Part shown: in pieces, positions 15,376 to 64,000 of the stretch
Position numbering within the stretch: the stretch's first letter is position 1
Layout: each line of letters begins with the position of its first letter
From: Thermoplasmata archaeon
GTDB taxonomy: Archaea; Thermoplasmatota; Thermoplasmata; Lutacidiplasmatales; UBA184
Assembly (NCBI GenBank): GCA_027315165.1
Contig: DAHUYN010000010.1
Coordinates: forward strand, 25,021-89,020
Direction: 5' to 3'
Length of the DNA stretch: 64,000 nucleotides
Position numbers and translations under genes: made by a program
Notes under the pieces: model-generated
Seen by the model: only the letters and a program-made list of their open reading frames with translations
Database searches by the model: none
What the model was told of the DNA's origin: nothing

Positions 15376-15891
15376 CTACGCGAACTCGTCGAGCCGAAGA
15401 TCCGAGGTCGACCGCCGACCGGGACCGACGAGCCTCGGGGCCCCCGAGAGCCCCCAGCCGACCCCCTCGGGGACCTCGCCCCGGGCGAGCGCGGCGAGGA
15501 GCTTGCGGAGGCGTTCGCGCGAGGCGGCGAACGGGTCCGGCTCGCCCTCCCCCCGGAGGGGCTGCGCCGGGCGGATCTCCTCGACGCGGTCGTCGGCGAC
15601 GCGCCAGACGCCGACGCGGGCGGCGACCTCGGGCTCGCGGACGTCGGCGAGCCGGCGCGCGGCGCGCACGCCCGGGACCGCGACGGCGACCCAGTCGGCC
15701 CACGCGCGCCGTCGCAGCGCCTGGCCCAAGACGGCCCTCGCGTCGGCGAGCTTCAGCTCGACGAGCCCGACCTCCTCGCCGCGGATCGCCGCGATGTCGA
15801 AGTAGTCGCGCCCGTCCGGGTCGGCCCACGCGAGGTAGCCCCGGGCTCGAAGGTGCGCGAGGACCGGCGCGCGGAGGTCGGCCTCGATCAC
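15376..15891 (-). CDS. Putative PD-(D/E)XK-superfamily nuclease in operon with mutSL
   Basis: DYFDIAAIRGEEVGLVELKLADARAVLGQALRRRAWADWVAVAVPG: D-x(n)-E-x-K arrangement plus downstream Gln; GTG start overlaps mutL stop (GTGA). Confidence 0.6.
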   Translation of the reverse strand: MIEADLRAPVLAHLRARGYLAWADPDGRDYFDIAAIRGEEVGLVELKLADARAVLGQALRRRAWADWVAVAVPGVRAARRLADVREPEVAARVGVWRVADDRVEEIRPAQPLRGEGEPDPFAASRERLRKLLAALARGEVPEGVGWGLSGAPRLVGPGRRSTSDLRLDEFA

Positions 15892-17681
15892 GCGGGGCTC
15901 CGCAGGAACCAGCGGTCGACGCGCGCCCGGTCGAACCGGACGAGGATGGGGCGGCCGTGCGGGCAGGCGTACGACGCCTCGGGGAGCTTGTAGAGCGCCT
16001 CGAGGACGCGCCGGAGCTCCTCGGGACGCACGACGTCGCCGCCGCGGATCGCCGCGTGGCAGGCGAGCATCGCGTCGGCGCGCTCGGTCATCCCGTCGGG
16101 GACCGTCGCGCGGCCTCCCTCGCCGAGCTCGTCGAGGAGGGCGAGCAGCTGCTCGGCCTGGGCGCGCCGCCCGCGGTACGTCGGCACCGACAAGAGCCGG
16201 TGCGCGCGGGGCCCGAACGACTCGAGCCCGAAGCCGCTGCGCGCGACCGCCTCGACGTGGGCCTTAAGGACCGAGGCGCGTCGGGGCGACAGCTCGAGGA
16301 GGATCGGCTCGACGAGCTCCTGCCGGGCGAGGCGACCCGATCGCCGGAGCTCCTCGTAGAGGACCCGCTCGCTCGCGGCGTGCTGGTCGACGAGGACGAG
16401 CGCGCCGTCCGACTCCGCGAGCCAGTAGAGGTCGAAGATGGGTCCGACGAGGCGCAGCGCGGGATGGTGGGGGCCCGCCGCGAGCGGCTCCGCCCCGGGA
16501 GCCTCGCCGAGCGTCCGCTGGACGCCGGCGGCGCCGCCGCTCGAGGCCGCACCCGACGCGGCCGGCCCCGGCACCGGGCCCGCGGCCGCGCCCTCGCGCC
16601 ACCCCGCGGGTCCCGGCTCCCTCGGGCCCCGCAGGGTCCCCGGGCCGGGCGCCCCCGTCCGGTCGGCGTAGTGGGGGGTCCTCGTGAGGCTGTCGCGGAC
16701 CGCGACCCGGAGCAGGTCGGCGACCTCGCGCTCCCGGGCGATCCGGACCTCGCGCTTCGTCGGGTGGACGTTCACGTCGACGCGCGCGAGGTCGAGGTCG
16801 AGATGGACGACGCCGAGCGGGCTTCGCGTTCGAGGGAGGTAGTCGGCGTAGGCCTGCCGCAGCGCCTGGACGAAGAGGCGGGAGCGGACGGCGCGGCCGT
16901 TGACCGACAGGTAGATCCCCGAGGGGCTCGAGCGGCTGAGGGCCGGCCGCGCGAGCACGCCCCGGATCGCGACCGGCCCTCCGAGGCCCGCGCGGACCTC
17001 GAACGACTGCTGGAGGAACTCGGGACCGAGGACGCGCCCCGCCGCGTCGCGGAGCGTCGTCGAGGGCGGGAAGCGCGCGAGCTCGCCCGACTCGTTCGAG
17101 AGCGTGAGGCCGACGCGAGGGCGGGCCAGGAACAACCGCTCGACCGTGTCGGCGACCTCGACCTGCTCGGCGGCCGGCGCCTTGAGGAACTTCCGACGGG
17201 CGGGCGTGTTGAAGAACAGATCGCGCACCTCGACCGTCGTCCCGAGGGCCCGGCCCTCGAGAAACTCGCCGGCGAGGTTGCCGGCGACGACGGAGAGGCC
17301 GTGGGCCTCCTCGTGCCCCGCGGCCCTCGAGAGGATCCGAAGCCTCGAGACGGCGCCGATGGCGGCGAGCGCCTCGCCGCGGAAGCCGAGCGTCGAGACG
17401 ACGTTAAGCTCCTCCGCCGTCGTGAGCTTGCTCGTCGCGTGCCGCTCGAGGGCGAGCGGCAGCTCCTCGGGCCGGATCCCGTGGCCGTCGTCGTCGACGA
17501 CGACGGCGTCGAGCCCCCCGTTCTCGAGCCGCACGCGGACCTCGTTCGCGCCGGCGTCGACGCTGTTCTCGACCAGCTCCTTCACGACGGAGGCCGGACG
17601 CTCGACGACCTCGCCCGCCGCGATACGGAGGACCGTCTCCTCGCTCAGGCGGCGGATCGGTCGGGGCTCTCGGCCCGTCAT
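15888..17681 (-). CDS. mutL: DNA mismatch repair protein MutL
   Basis: IAAGEVVERPASVVKELVENSVDAGA, GFRGEALAAI GHKL ATPase motifs; C-terminal DQHAASERVLYEE, ACHAAIRGG, CPHGRP. Confidence 0.95.
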   Translation of the reverse strand: MTGREPRPIRRLSEETVLRIAAGEVVERPASVVKELVENSVDAGANEVRVRLENGGLDAVVVDDDGHGIRPEELPLALERHATSKLTTAEELNVVSTLGFRGEALAAIGAVSRLRILSRAAGHEEAHGLSVVAGNLAGEFLEGRALGTTVEVRDLFFNTPARRKFLKAPAAEQVEVADTVERLFLARPRVGLTLSNESGELARFPPSTTLRDAAGRVLGPEFLQQSFEVRAGLGGPVAIRGVLARPALSRSSPSGIYLSVNGRAVRSRLFVQALRQAYADYLPRTRSPLGVVHLDLDLARVDVNVHPTKREVRIAREREVADLLRVAVRDSLTRTPHYADRTGAPGPGTLRGPREPGPAGWREGAAAGPVPGPAASGAASSGGAAGVQRTLGEAPGAEPLAAGPHHPALRLVGPIFDLYWLAESDGALVLVDQHAASERVLYEELRRSGRLARQELVEPILLELSPRRASVLKAHVEAVARSGFGLESFGPRAHRLLSVPTYRGRRAQAEQLLALLDELGEGGRATVPDGMTERADAMLACHAAIRGGDVVRPEELRRVLEALYKLPEASYACPHGRPILVRFDRARVDRWFLRSPA

Positions 17682-20293
17682 CGTCCGGGGGTGTCGCCTC
17701 CGACGAGACGTCGCCGCCACTCGGCGAGGAAACTGAGCGCCTCGAACGGCGTCATCCGCTCCGGGTCGAGGGCCCTCAGCGCGGCCTCGACCTCCGAGGT
17801 CGGGCCCGCCTCGGAAGAGAGCAGGACCGCCTGCGTGTAGCGCGTCGGCGGCGAGCGCCGGGCCGTCGGGCCGACCGTCACGCCCTCCGCCTCGAGCCGT
17901 CGCAGCAGGCGCTTCGCATCGTCGAGGAGCGGCTCGGGAAGGCCGGCGAGCCGCGCGACGTGGAGCCCGTAGCTCCGGTCCGTCGACCCCGGCACGAGGC
18001 GATGGAGGAAGGTGACCTCGTCTCCCTCCTCGCGGACGGCGAGGTGGGCGTTCCGGGCCGCCGGGAGGCCCGCGACGAGCTCCGTCAGCTGGTGGTAATG
18101 GGTCGCGAGGATCGTGCGGCAGCGCACCCGGTCGTGGAGGTGGCGCAACGTCGCCCAGGCGAGGGCGAGCCCGTCGAAGGTGCTCGTCCCCCGGCCGACC
18201 TCGTCGAGGAGGACCAGCGCCCGCGCGTCGGCGCCGCGGAGGATCTCCGAGACCTCGGTCATCTCGACCATGAAGCTCGACTTGCCCCGACCGATCTCGT
18301 CGGTGAACCCCATCCGCGTGTAGAGGGCGCTCACGACGCCGACGCGGGCGAAGCGCGCGGGGACGAAGGCGCCGACCTGGGCGAGGAGGACCGTGAGCCC
18401 GACCTGGCGCATGTACGTCGACTTCCCCGACATGTTGGGCCCGGTGAGCACGAGAAGCCGCCCCGACTCGGCGTCAAGGTCGACGTCGTTGGGGACGAAC
18501 CCGGACTCGAGCGTCCGGTCGAGCACCGGATGGCGGCCGTCGCGGACGGAGAGGACCGAGGAGTCGTCGACGACGGGCCGCACGAGCCCACGCTCCTGGG
18601 CCAAGAGGGCGAACGTCGCGATCGTGTCGAGCTCGCCGACCGCCTGGGAGAGACGGTGGACCTCGGGGGTCGTGCGCTCGACCTCCTCGAGGAACCGCTC
18701 CCAGGCCGACCGCTCCGCCTCCTCGCGCCGGCCGCGCGCGTCGAGGATCCGCGACTCGATCGCGGCGAGCTCCTCCGAGGTGAACCGCTCGCCCGCGGCG
18801 AGGGTCTGCCGCCTCCGATAGTGGGGCGGGACGCGGCCGAGGTTCGGCCGCGTCACCTCGAGGTAGTAGCCGAAGACGTTGTTGTAGCCGACCTTGAGGC
18901 CCCGGATCCCCGTCGTGTCCTGTTCCCGGCGCTCGAGCGAGGCGAGCTCGGCGAGCCCCTCGGACTCGGTCCGCGCGAGCGCGTCGAGCTCGGGGTCGAA
19001 CCCCGGACGGAACAGGCCGCCCGCGTCGGCCGTCGCGGGCGGCTCCTCGGGCAGCGCGGCGGCGAGCAGGTCCGAGAGCGACGTGACGGGGGCGAGCCGG
19101 GCGACGAGGTCGGCGAGCCGTCCCGGGGCCGCCGACGCCGAGAGCCAGGTGCGGACACGACCGACGGCGTCGAGCCCGGCGCGGAGCGCGGCGAGCTCTG
19201 GAGGCCGGACGCGGCGGCCCGCGACCCGCGCCGCGATGCGCGCGAGATCGGGGACCGGTCCCAGCTCCGAGCGCAGCACGAGGAGGTCGCTCCCGCGGCC
19301 GACGAGCGCCTCGACGGCGTCGAGGCGCTCGCGGATCGCCCCGACCTCGGCGAGCGGGGTCCGGAGCCAGAAGGCGAGCGTGCGCCGGCCCGGCGGCGTG
19401 ACCGTCTCGTCCCACGTCGACAGGAGCGTCGGCCCGCCGGGGTCGTCCGGGTTCATCGGGTGCACGACCTCGAGGTGCCGGAGTGTCTTCCCGTCGAGCA
19501 AGAGCCGACGCGTCGTCGTCCCGTCGCCGACGAGCTCGAGGTATCGGAGCAGCCGCGGCTGCGCTCTCGCGACGTACCGCGCGAGGTCGTCCTCGGCGGC
19601 GGCGACGGACGCGGTCGCGGACGGCGGGACCGACGCGGGCATGGTGACGGCGACGTCGTCGGGGGGCGGTGGCGCCTCGAGGTGGGCCCGAGGGAACTCG
19701 CGACGGAGCCCGGCGGCGAGCGCTCGCCCCGGGTCTCCTTCGCGCTCGGAGACCAGCACCTCCGACGGCTGGAACGGCGCGAGCGCCGCGAGGAGCCCGT
19801 CGACGCCCGCCTCGGCCGCCTCGCCGCGGAACCACTCCCCCGTCGTCACGTCGACGCACGCGAAGCTGCCGCGGCCGGTCGCCGAGAGGCGGAGGCTCGC
19901 GAGGAAGTTGTGGTCGGGGCCGGCGAGGATCCGGTCCTCGACGACCGTCCCGGGCGTGACGACGCGCGTGACCTCGCGCCGGACGAGCCCCTTGGCGAAC
20001 TTCGCGTCCTCGACCTGGTCGCAGAGCGCGACCTTGTACCCCTTCCGGACGAGTCGGGCGAGGTAGCTCTCGACGGCGTGGTGCGGGACGCCGGCCATCG
20101 GCGTCCGTTCGCCGTTCGTGTCCGGCGAGCGGGCGGTGAGGACGACCTCGAGCTCCCGCGAGAGGAGCCGGGCGTCGTCGCCGAACGTCTCGAAGAAGTC
20201 CCCGACGCGGAAGAGGACGAGATGGCCCGGATACCGCTGCTTGACCCGCTCGTACTGCTCCATGAGCGGGGTCGTGACAACGCCGTCGGGCAT
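17678..20293 (-). CDS. mutS: DNA mismatch repair ATPase MutS
   Basis: RVGDFFETFGDDA mismatch-binding Phe-X-Glu, LTGPNMSGKSTYMRQ Walker A, LVLLDEVGRGTSTFDG. Confidence 0.97.
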   Translation of the reverse strand: MPDGVVTTPLMEQYERVKQRYPGHLVLFRVGDFFETFGDDARLLSRELEVVLTARSPDTNGERTPMAGVPHHAVESYLARLVRKGYKVALCDQVEDAKFAKGLVRREVTRVVTPGTVVEDRILAGPDHNFLASLRLSATGRGSFACVDVTTGEWFRGEAAEAGVDGLLAALAPFQPSEVLVSEREGDPGRALAAGLRREFPRAHLEAPPPPDDVAVTMPASVPPSATASVAAAEDDLARYVARAQPRLLRYLELVGDGTTTRRLLLDGKTLRHLEVVHPMNPDDPGGPTLLSTWDETVTPPGRRTLAFWLRTPLAEVGAIRERLDAVEALVGRGSDLLVLRSELGPVPDLARIAARVAGRRVRPPELAALRAGLDAVGRVRTWLSASAAPGRLADLVARLAPVTSLSDLLAAALPEEPPATADAGGLFRPGFDPELDALARTESEGLAELASLERREQDTTGIRGLKVGYNNVFGYYLEVTRPNLGRVPPHYRRRQTLAAGERFTSEELAAIESRILDARGRREEAERSAWERFLEEVERTTPEVHRLSQAVGELDTIATFALLAQERGLVRPVVDDSSVLSVRDGRHPVLDRTLESGFVPNDVDLDAESGRLLVLTGPNMSGKSTYMRQVGLTVLLAQVGAFVPARFARVGVVSALYTRMGFTDEIGRGKSSFMVEMTEVSEILRGADARALVLLDEVGRGTSTFDGLALAWATLRHLHDRVRCRTILATHYHQLTELVAGLPAARNAHLAVREEGDEVTFLHRLVPGSTDRSYGLHVARLAGLPEPLLDDAKRLLRRLEAEGVTVGPTARRSPPTRYTQAVLLSSEAGPTSEVEAALRALDPERMTPFEALSFLAEWRRRLVGGDTPGR

Positions 20294-20352: not shown

Positions 20353-20436
20353 CGCTGAGGGGGAGATTTGAACTCCCGTGGCGGAACCGCCACCAGCTTT
20401 CAAGGCTGGCGCCTTGCCGGGCTAGGCTACCTCAGC
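20353..20436 (-). tRNA. tRNA-Ser(UGA), no intron
   Basis: Minus strand GCTGAGGTAGCC...CCAGC CTTGAAA GCTGG, long variable arm TGGCGGTTCCGCCA, T-arm GGGAGTTCAAATCTCCC, acceptor CCTCAGC. Confidence 0.93.
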
Positions 20437-20607: not shown

Positions 20608-20708
20608 TGCAGGCGCCGGGAGTCCCGCGCGAACGCGGGAGGCGTCCGCGATTCGAACCCGGGTGGTCAGCTTGGAAGGCTGACATCCTACCGCTAGATT
20701 ACACCTGC
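20608..20708 (-). tRNA. tRNA-Gly(UCC) interrupted by a 30-nt intron in the T-loop
   Basis: Minus strand GCAGGTG TA ATCTAGCGGTAGGAT G TCAGC CTTCCAA GCTGA CCAC CCGGG TTCGAA[intron]T CCCGG CGCCTGC A; acceptor and T-stem pair only when the intron is removed. Confidence 0.88.
20622..20651 (-). other. Predicted BHB intron (30 nt) of tRNA-Gly(UCC) at about 59/60
   Basis: Minus strand TCGCGGACGCCTCCCGCGTTCGCGCGGGAC: 8-bp stem CGCGGACG/CGTTCGCG, central helix UUCG/CGGG (two GU), 3-nt bulges AAU and ACU. Confidence 0.8.
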
Positions 20709-23877: not shown

Positions 23878-26100
23878 ATGGGAGAGGCAATCACCCTCCG
23901 CGTCGCCGAGGCGTTCCAGCAGGACATCGGTCTCGGCACCGCCCGCCTCGACGTCGGCACCCGCCAGCGGCTCAAGGTCGGGGTCGGCGACATCGTCGAG
24001 ATCCGCGGCCGCAAGACGACCGCGGCGCTCGTCAACCGCGCCCAGCAGGAGGACGAGGGGAAGGGGGTCCTCCGCGTCGAGGCGGTCGTCCGGCGGAACG
24101 CGGGGGTCAGCATCGGCGACCGCGTCATCGTCCAGCGGATCGACTGCCCGATCTCCGACTCGATCACGATCGCCCCGATCTACTCCGGCTCGGCGAAGAT
24201 GGACCTCGGGCCCGGTCTCGAGGCGTTCGTCTCGAAGGCGCTCAGCCGACGGCCGTTCGTGCGCGGGGACGTCTTCGTCATCCCCGGGGTCTTCCTGATG
24301 GGCGGCTCGCTGCCGTTCATGGTGCTGCAGACGCAGCCCAAGGGGACCGTCCAGGTCGGCCCGACGACGCTCATCACGATCAAGGACGAGACCGTCACCG
24401 AGACGGAGGTCGCGGCCCCTCGGGTCTCCTACGAGGACATCGGCGGCCTCAAGGAGAAGCTGGGACGCGTCCGCGAGATGATCGAGCTGCCCCTCAAGCA
24501 CCCCGAGCTGTTCGACCGGCTCGCGATCTCCCCGCCGAAGGGGGTGCTCCTCTACGGTCCCCCCGGGACGGGCAAGACGCTGATCGCGAAGGCCGTCGCG
24601 AACGAGGCCGGCGCGCACTTCATCGGCATCCAGGGGCCCGAGATCATCTCGAAGTACTACGGGGAGAGCGAGAAGGAGCTTCGGGAGAAGTTCGAGGAGG
24701 CGGAGAAGAACGCCCCCTCGGTGGTCTTCATCGACGAGCTCGACTCGATCGCCCCCCGCCGTGACGAGGTCGTCGGCGAGGTCGAGCGCCGCGTCGTCGC
24801 GCAGCTCCTCACGCTGATGGACGGCCTCTCGGGCCGGGGGAACGTCATCGTCATCGCCGCGACGAACCGCGAGGAGGCGATCGACCCCGCCCTCCGCCGT
24901 CCCGGCCGGTTCGACCGCGAGATCGAGATCGGCGTGCCGACGCAGGCCGGCCGGCTCGAGATCCTGCAGATCCACACGCGCGGGATGCCGATCGAGGGGG
25001 GCGAGAAGGAGCGGGAACGGACCCTCAAGGAGCTCGCGGCGCTCTCCCACGGCTTCGTCGGCGCCGACCTCGCGGCGCTCGCGCGCGAGGCGGCGATGCG
25101 GACGCTGCGCCGCTACCTGCCCGAGATCGACTTCGACAAGCCGATCCCGTTGAGCCTCCTCGAGAGGATGAAGGTCACCGACCGCGACTTCAAGGAGGCG
25201 CTCAAGCAGATCGAGCCGTCGAGCCTCCGCGACGTCTCGATCGAGATCCCGAGCGTCCGCTGGTCGGACATCGGGGGGCTCGACCGCGTCAAGCTCTCGC
25301 TGCAGGAGTCCGTCGAGCTGCCGTTCCGGAATCCCGCGGTCTACAAGCACCTGGGGATCGACGGGCCGCGAGGGATCCTCCTCTACGGCCCGCCCGGGGT
25401 CGGCAAGACCCTCCTCGCCAAGGCCGCCGCGACCGAGAGCCAGGCGAACTTCATCTCCGTCAAGGGCCCCGAGGTGATGAGCAAGTGGGTCGGGGAGAGC
25501 GAGAAGGCGGTCCGGGTGATCTTCAAGAAGGCCCGTCAGGCCTCGCCCGCGATCGTCTTCATCGACGAGATCGACGCGATCGCCCCCCGCCGCGGCCTCC
25601 AGACCTCGAGCGGCGTCACCGAGCGGATCGTGAACCAGCTCCTCACGTCGATCGACGGCCTCGAGTCGCTCGAGCGGGTGCTCGTCCTCGCCGCCACGAA
25701 CCGGCCGGACATCCTCGACGAGGCGCTGCTCCGGACCGGGCGGTTCGACCGGCTCGTCTACGTCGAGCCCCCCAACGTCGCCGGGCGGCTCGAGATCCTC
25801 AAGGTCCACACGAAGCGGATGCCCCTCGAGGACGTGAGCCTCCTCGAGATCGCCCAGCGGACCGAGGGGTTCGTCGGGAGCGACCTCGCGACCCTCTGCC
25901 GCGAGGCGGGGCTCGTCGCGATCCGCGAGAACGTGAAGGCCTCGAAGGTCACGATGGCCCACTTCGACGAGGCGCTGCGGCTCGCCCACGCCTCCCTCTC
26001 GCCCGAGACGCTCAAGTTCTACGAGGAGTTCCAAAAGCGCCTCGGTCGAGAGCGCGTCGCCGAGGCCCGCCAGGAGACGGCGCAGGCGATCTACCGCTGA
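23878..26100 (+). CDS. CDC48/VAT-type AAA ATPase (two AAA domains)
   Basis: N-domain [18 protein letters not shown]..., two Walker A ([16 protein letters not shown]) and two Walker B ([16 protein letters not shown]); C-terminus AIYR. Confidence 0.96.
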
Positions 26101-57130: not shown

Positions 57131-57233
57131 TAGCGGGGCATGGATTTGAACCATGGATCTACGGGTTATGAGCCCGTCGGGATTTCAGGGCGAGCGACCG
57201 CGTCGCCCGCTTTCCTGACTACCCTACCCCGCT
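57131..57233 (-). tRNA. Initiator tRNA-Met(CAU) interrupted by a 28-nt intron in the D-loop
   Basis: Minus strand AGCGGGG TA GGGTAGTCAGGAA[intron]ATCCC GACGGGCTCATAACCCGTAGAT CCATGGTTCAAATCCATG CCCCGCT A; A1-U72 pair and GGG/CCC anticodon-stem run of archaeal initiators. Confidence 0.92.
57184..57211 (-). other. Predicted BHB intron (28 nt) of initiator tRNA-Met in the D-loop
   Basis: Minus strand AGCGGGCGACGCGGTCGCTCGCCCTGAA: 8-bp stem GCGGGCGA/TCGCTCGC, central 4-bp helix CAGG/CCTG, two AAA bulges. Confidence 0.87.
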
Positions 57234-63790: not shown

Positions 63791-64000
63791 GTGAGCAAGC
63801 GCCGATCGGTGCGGCCGGTCACCTTCACCGCCGAGGAATGGCGGACCCATTTGGAACTGGATGCCCAGCTCCGCGAACAGAATCGAATCCAGCGGCAGTT
63901 GATCGCGCGCCTCGAAGAGAACCTCGAACTCCTCCAGGGGCGGCTGCCGCCACCCCCGGACTGGGTCAAGCCCAACGTCCCCGAGCGCCCCGAGGAGGAG
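63791..64000 (+). CDS. N-terminal part of a second transposase-like protein (runs off window)
   Basis: GTG start; VSKRRSVRPVTFTAEEWRTHLELDAQLREQNRIQRQLIARLEENLELLQGRLPPPPDWVKPNVPERPEEE, resembles the N-terminus of IS66-type transposases. Confidence 0.6.
   Translation, partial: MSKRRSVRPVTFTAEEWRTHLELDAQLREQNRIQRQLIARLEENLELLQGRLPPPPDWVKPNVPERPEEE

Follow-up and report, generated by a model that had tools for sequence, protein, structure and literature searches.

Does the 101-nt locus at positions 20608-20708 encode a genuine tRNA-Gly(UCC) that is interrupted in its T-loop by an intron of the archaeal bulge-helix-bulge (BHB) kind, and if so, how would such an intron be removed? The locus lies in a window of 64,000 nucleotides (the whole stretch of DNA that was analysed), positions 25,021 to 89,020 of contig DAHUYN010000010.1 from a soil-type Thermoplasmata archaeon of the order Lutacidiplasmatales (assembly GCA_027315165.1). 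When the gene is read contiguously its T-arm does not close; a full cloverleaf is obtained only after deletion of positions 20622-20651. The spliced form has a 7-bp acceptor stem GCAGGTG/CGCCTGC with one GU pair, the T-stem CCGGG/CCCGG and the T-loop TTCGAAT. The parts of the gene are as follows.

20608..20708, minus strand: interrupted tRNA-Gly(UCC) gene, 101 nt, or 71 nt once the intron is removed
20652..20708, minus strand: 5' exon (tRNA positions 1-59), anticodon UCC at 20674-20676; compared with 65 relatives
20622..20651, minus strand: T-loop intron, 30 nt, site 59/60; from a BHB scan, covariation among relatives and absence in 23 class-mates
20608..20621, minus strand: 3' exon, comprising U60, the 3' strands of the T-stem and acceptor, and discriminator A73
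20654..20657, minus strand: central helix, exon strand U54-U55-C56-G57; BHB scan and direct reading
20624..20627, minus strand: central helix, intron strand CGGG; BHB scan
20651..20653, minus strand: 5' bulge AA|U containing the 5' splice site; BHB scan
20621..20623, minus strand: 3' bulge AC|U containing the 3' splice site; BHB scan
20628..20650, minus strand: intron hairpin, 9 bp and a 5-nt loop

The intron junction is a strict BHB, in which the outer helix (the 5-bp T-stem) is followed by a 3-nt bulge, the 4-bp helix UUCG/CGGG and a second 3-nt bulge. The structural features that mark a BHB intron are all present, namely the two 3-nt bulges, the 4-bp helix and predicted cut sites that fall between bulge nucleotides 2 and 3. 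A 4-bp central helix together with an inner helix of at least 9 bp arose in 8 of 1,000,000 shuffles of the insert. A preliminary description of the locus had proposed an intron of 30 nt at site 59/60, and both site and length hold, as removal of 20622-20651 restores the T-stem and acceptor; its BHB anatomy and 71-nt spliced product also stand, but its intron hairpin of 8 bp with a 7-nt loop is corrected to the dimensions given above. A group I or II self-splicing intron was considered and rejected, the insert being only 30 nt and a single hairpin against a catalytic core of at least ~100 nt, and no Rfam intron family was found in the window by an Rfam search. We conclude, with a probability of roughly 0.93, that the insert is a true BHB tRNA intron of the archaeal kind, lying at 59/60 and presumably spliced by the single alpha'2-type splicing endonuclease (EndA) of the genome and the ligase RtcB.

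Relatives were collected with a search pattern lying entirely upstream of the intron, which matched 93 of the 101 genomes of the family; 60 loci were read from it at first and others added later, the resulting set holds 65 distinct tRNA-Gly(UCC) sequences, and the 61 distinct introns were used for pairing and covariation. It is clear that all of the family loci read carry an insert at the identical site, with nearly invariant exons surrounding an intron that evolves fast in both sequence and length. Among the 61 introns BHB pairing was seen in 92.7% of cells, compared to 80.9% when shuffled, and the covariation score was 0.321, compared to 0.132 for shuffled introns and at most 0.136 with slid strands; because the intron sequences are related the shuffles overstate significance, while the slid-strand controls retain that relatedness. 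Double changes, affecting both sides of the pair, were found at all 7 inner pairs of the intron helix. The central helix pairs in 97.1% of cells with seven exceptions, in each of which A57 faces G. Furthermore, when the loci were extracted with no pairing requirement, exon positions 54-56 lay opposite pairable intron letters in every one.

RNAfold draws the unspliced RNA as one long T-arm hairpin, as would be seen if the insert were retained and the mature tRNA functioned with a long extra hairpin on this arm. Retention is, however, very improbable. An exact T-stem and T-loop are present in the exons of every relative while the insert varies from 28 to 38 nt, and the two 3-nt bulges round the 4-bp helix, which are needed by the splicing endonuclease alone, are preserved. 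Further, the tRNA-Gly(UCC) of 23 Thermoplasmata genomes from eight other families, including both sampled genomes of the sister family f3, has an uninterrupted T-arm with no insert; this comparison leaves out the sister family f2, which was unscored for this tRNA. Since all family loci read carry the intron and the 23 outside genomes do not, the simplest reading of these genes, and the outcome of the comparison with relatives suggested in the preliminary description, would be that the intron was acquired once, on the stem of the family, and was lost from none of the loci read. Related genomes in which an intron was gained on one branch and retained throughout provide a setting in which intron gain can be studied.

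The preliminary description had named a second, continuous tRNA-Gly(UCC) as a finding that would speak against splicing at this locus. None was found in the genome, continuous or other, and 20608-20708 is the sole copy located. Contiguous annotators handle this copy badly: ARAGORN places a 71-nt gene at 20637-20707, with wrong ends, and the Rfam tRNA model reports it at 35.1 bits with broken pairs. Such low scores and wrong ends could also come from a pseudogene or an assembly error, but this explanation can for practical purposes be dismissed, as the locus is the only tRNA-Gly(UCC) found and its structure is shared by 65 distinct sequences, taken from genomes that were assembled separately, alongside conserved synteny to tRNA-Ser(UGA).

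The intron is one of many in this genome. An inventory built from the Rfam model, a tRNA-aware intron finder and a covariance model built on tRNAs interrupted in the T-loop located 44 tRNA genes, 20 of which are interrupted, with at least 13 introns in the T-loop, 5 in the D-loop and 4 in the anticodon loop. The tRNA-aware finder was written because a strict scan for 4-of-4 pairing misses introns with A57. The genes concerned are listed here.

T-loop introns (site 59/60), 13: Gly-UCC, Glu-CUC, Ser-CGA, Ser-GCU, Ser-GGA, Asn, Arg-UCU, Arg-UCG, Asp, Gln-CUG, His, Lys-UUU and Leu-UAG
D-loop introns, 5: iMet (the initiator tRNA-Met), Arg-GCG, Pro-UGG, Lys-UUU and Leu-UAG; those of Pro, Lys and Leu are deduced mainly from D-arm length and relatives rather than from a strict BHB
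Anticodon-loop introns, 4: Met, Tyr, Leu-UAA and Trp (Trp by eye from L071)

The lineage-wide expansion suspected from the window alone is thus borne out by the genome-wide survey that had been proposed with it, and is larger than was guessed. Genes for Ala-GGC and Val-GAC tRNAs were not located in the genome by the three search methods. The anticodon-loop intron of tRNA-Trp (L071:256-416), of roughly 90 nt, bears a GATGA box C-like motif, in which it resembles the box C/D introns known from other Euryarchaeota.

The T-loop introns obey a common rule. In 91 of them, taken from several genomes and isoacceptors, U54 and U55 face A or G, C56 faces G, and G57 lies opposite C in 67 of 68 cases; A57 lies opposite G in 18 of the 91 (about 20%), opposite U in 4 and opposite A in 1. 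The finder demanded pairing at 54-56 and set no such demand at 57, so that the result at position 57 is unforced. The same grammar holds in this genome, across 13 isoacceptors, as well as in the sister families. Movement of introns from one isoacceptor to another was looked for through pairwise similarity relative to shuffles, which gave a mean z of 0.5 and a best value of 3.6 among 78 pairs, with no clear copies.

Annotation of the interrupted genes suffers accordingly. With the 13 T-loop-intron genes in their unspliced form ARAGORN returned either nothing or wrong ends. Given spliced forms, it called 14 of 16 as normal tRNAs with the expected identity, the two failures being Lys-UUU and Leu-UAG, whose D-loop intron was still inside in the test. 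In this genome the Rfam tRNA model left His, Pro-GGG, Pro-UGG and Leu-UAG unreported even at lax E-values (of these, Pro-GGG is uninterrupted), and at its curated threshold it missed 6 of 8 T-loop-intron loci from the rest of the class. The earlier caution that a contiguous annotator could miss the tRNA-Gly(UCC) gene or call it pseudo needs adjusting, as that gene is mis-bounded and not missed, ARAGORN and Rfam both reporting it, faultily; His, Pro-UGG and Leu-UAG are missed entirely by the Rfam model. The practical consequence is that contiguous models mis-bound or miss tRNA genes of these archaea.

Which enzymes could remove these introns? Only one EndA is encoded in the genome; its frame of about 353 amino acids contains two PF01974 units, and it aligns over 310 residues, almost end to end, with the alpha'2 enzyme of A. 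fulgidus; the catalytic Tyr/His/Lys are conserved in its C-terminal unit. No insertion was found in the alignment, compared with 3P1Y, at the site of the Crenarchaea-specific loop (CSL). An epsilon2-type enzyme was rejected, as it requires a three-unit protomer and two units are present here. Judged by its sequence, the EndA is of the alpha'2 type and lacks the loop that broadens crenarchaeal EndA. RtcB is also present (E=2e-171). Each of 14 sampled Thermoplasmata genomes has one EndA locus, with two fused units in 12 of the 14; in the two genomes of family f15 one unit was detected, in a frame of 289-292 amino acids, which is the length of the known alpha'2 enzyme of T. acidophilum (PMC6379350).

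With these enzymes the pre-tRNA would fold with the T-stem as its outer helix, and U54-G57 would pair with the end of the intron to form the 4-bp central helix. The single alpha'2-type EndA would then cut both 3-nt bulges, and RtcB would ligate the exons and restore the T-loop, with an expected exon junction of ...GGGTTCGAA|TCCCGG.... We infer this cleavage and ligation of pre-tRNA-Gly(UCC) from the anatomy of the gene and its predicted enzymes. Most likely, in our view, the T-arm mimics the anticodon arm and EndA can cut it for that reason; site 59/60 would be favoured over others in the T-arm because both it and 37/38 come directly after nucleotide 6 of a 7-nt loop carried by a 5-bp stem.

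Several points weigh against this account. Splicing of tRNA-Gly(UCC) is deduced from DNA. On a strict reading of the literature alpha'2 enzymes are narrow in specificity (PMC6379350), and the A57-G mismatch in the central helix, present in 18 of the 91 T-loop introns, is one that such an enzyme would be expected to cut poorly; the same mismatch is seen in 7 of the 61 Gly introns. The reviews do not agree on how lenient alpha'2 enzymes are, and one of them describes cleavage of bulge-helix-loop (BHL)-like motifs (PMC8707768).

Alternatively, it could be that the site was opened not by mimicry of the anticodon arm but by a new route to a broader EndA specificity, for example through a conserved loop, with the motif PRGG...KTP, in the enzyme's N-terminal half. 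This proposal concerns the enzyme and is compatible with the insert being a BHB intron; we regard it as a possibility to be taken seriously but lean against it. A57 opposite G makes many introns deviate from a strict BHB, D-loop introns are present too, and most of the lineages that have T-loop introns keep the loop; it is shortened in A. fulgidus, f12 and f15, the last two being lineages in which no such introns were detected. Against it, the CSL insertion is absent, in family f8 the PRGG...KTP loop is present and T-loop introns were seen rarely or not at all, and the loop may simply be ancestral; its association with T-loop introns is a correlation, and one across few lineages. The idea that enzyme and introns coevolved is directly testable using recombinant enzyme.

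T-loop introns extend beyond the family. The sister family f2 has them in Arg-UCU, Ser-UGA, Ser-GCU and Lys-UUU, with lengths of just 13-15 nt in some cases, and f3 has them in Ala-CGC, Arg-CCG and Lys-UUU; within the family of the present genome, G006, from a different genus, has them in at least 11 tRNAs. Elsewhere in the class the loci read carry them chiefly in Arg-UCU, Arg-CCG and Lys-UUU, some with a 37/38 intron also. For lineage f12 there were only two matches, unread and of about 128-130 nt, and the two single-contig genomes of f15 gave no long match among the matches listed. Elsewhere among the Thermoplasmata families, Arg(UCU) and Arg(CCG) genes were seen to combine a 37/38 and a T-loop intron (L193-L196), and in tRNA-Lys(UUU) a D-loop intron and a T-loop intron occur together in each of the order's three families (L070, L122, L138, L155). 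Because they are present in all three, the Lys(UUU) introns appear to predate that of Gly.

Published lists of archaeal tRNA intron positions already include site 59/60 (PMC4090602, PMC3218864). The non-canonical introns of Thermoproteales and other Crenarchaeota are alike in their BHB junction, small size, use of 59/60 and possible occurrence of several per gene; they differ in being found mainly with (alpha-beta)2 EndA and at many positions, whereas here 13 of 18 non-canonical introns are at 59/60, with an alpha'2 EndA. Similar intron sequences recur among different tRNAs in Thermoproteales (PMC4033280), in contrast to the lack of clear similarity between isoacceptors seen here. Permuted tRNAs of Thermofilum pendens and Cyanidioschyzon merolae are joined at 59/60 with a T-loop BHB, as here (PMC3218864), but in this genome gene order is normal and the intron lies within a collinear gene. 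The 37/38 introns of Euryarchaeota (alpha4 or alpha'2 EndA) share enzyme class and loop geometry, but here the T-arm and not the anticodon arm is interrupted and the A57-G mismatch is frequent. ARMAN-2 likewise has non-canonical introns outside Crenarchaeota (PMC6379350), although its EndA is a three-unit epsilon2 enzyme and the EndA here a two-unit alpha'2.

In reviews, non-canonical introns in tRNA genes are associated with endonucleases of the (alpha-beta)2 or epsilon2 type, and alpha2/alpha4 Euryarchaeota are described as having few, single, canonical introns (PMC4090602, PMC6379350). This rule is contradicted by a lineage in which one alpha'2 EndA coexists with 18 non-canonical introns among the 44 tRNA genes located. 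The word 'intron' is absent from the paper describing Lutacidiplasmatales (PMC9287336), and a literature search excluding most subscription journals found no report of T-loop introns or their expansion in Thermoplasmata. The kind of intron and site 59/60 are therefore already known; what is new is their expansion throughout the order, at one specific site and with an alpha'2 enzyme. More tentatively, and at what we judge to be somewhat short of even odds, Thermoplasmata would hold an overlooked, site-specific class of 59/60 introns that is massively expanded in one order, with an alpha'2 EndA tolerant of the T-arm and of A57-G in spite of lacking the known specificity loops. The T-arm would then be a second docking place for BHB introns, resembling the anticodon arm, which may explain why permuted tRNAs are joined at 59/60.

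The window holds three tRNA genes, Ser(UGA), Gly(UCC) and iMet, and as first described two of them have introns outside the anticodon loop, in the T-loop of Gly(UCC) and the D-loop of iMet.

20353..20436, minus strand: tRNA-Ser(UGA), contiguous, neighbour of tRNA-Gly(UCC)
57131..57233, minus strand: initiator tRNA-Met gene with a D-loop intron
57184..57211, minus strand: iMet D-loop intron, 28 nt, central helix CAGG/CCUG, bulges AA|A and AA|A

In the iMet intron all 4 bp of the central helix are formed and both bulges are of 3 nt, an arrangement shared by the relative L117. An ARAGORN tRNA call at 63907-63997, at the contig end, has an anticodon loop of 8 nt and lies in coding-like sequence; it was rejected as a false positive. 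The pairing of Gly(UCC) with Ser(UGA) is kept in 61 of 65 relatives. MutL- and MutS-like open reading frames at 15888-20293, named by reading their translations with no family search, adjoin the two genes. The genome is 2.04 Mb and the G+C content of the window 71.6%; for Lutacidiplasmatales a genome of about 2.1 Mb, G+C near 69% and the presence of mutLS have been described (PMC9287336). Finally, the near-universal U33 is replaced by C33 in 33 of the 65 family tRNA-Gly(UCC) sequences (loop CCUCCAA; e.g. L039, L042, L057), and C33 is also listed for L103 and L104; the gene in the window has U33.
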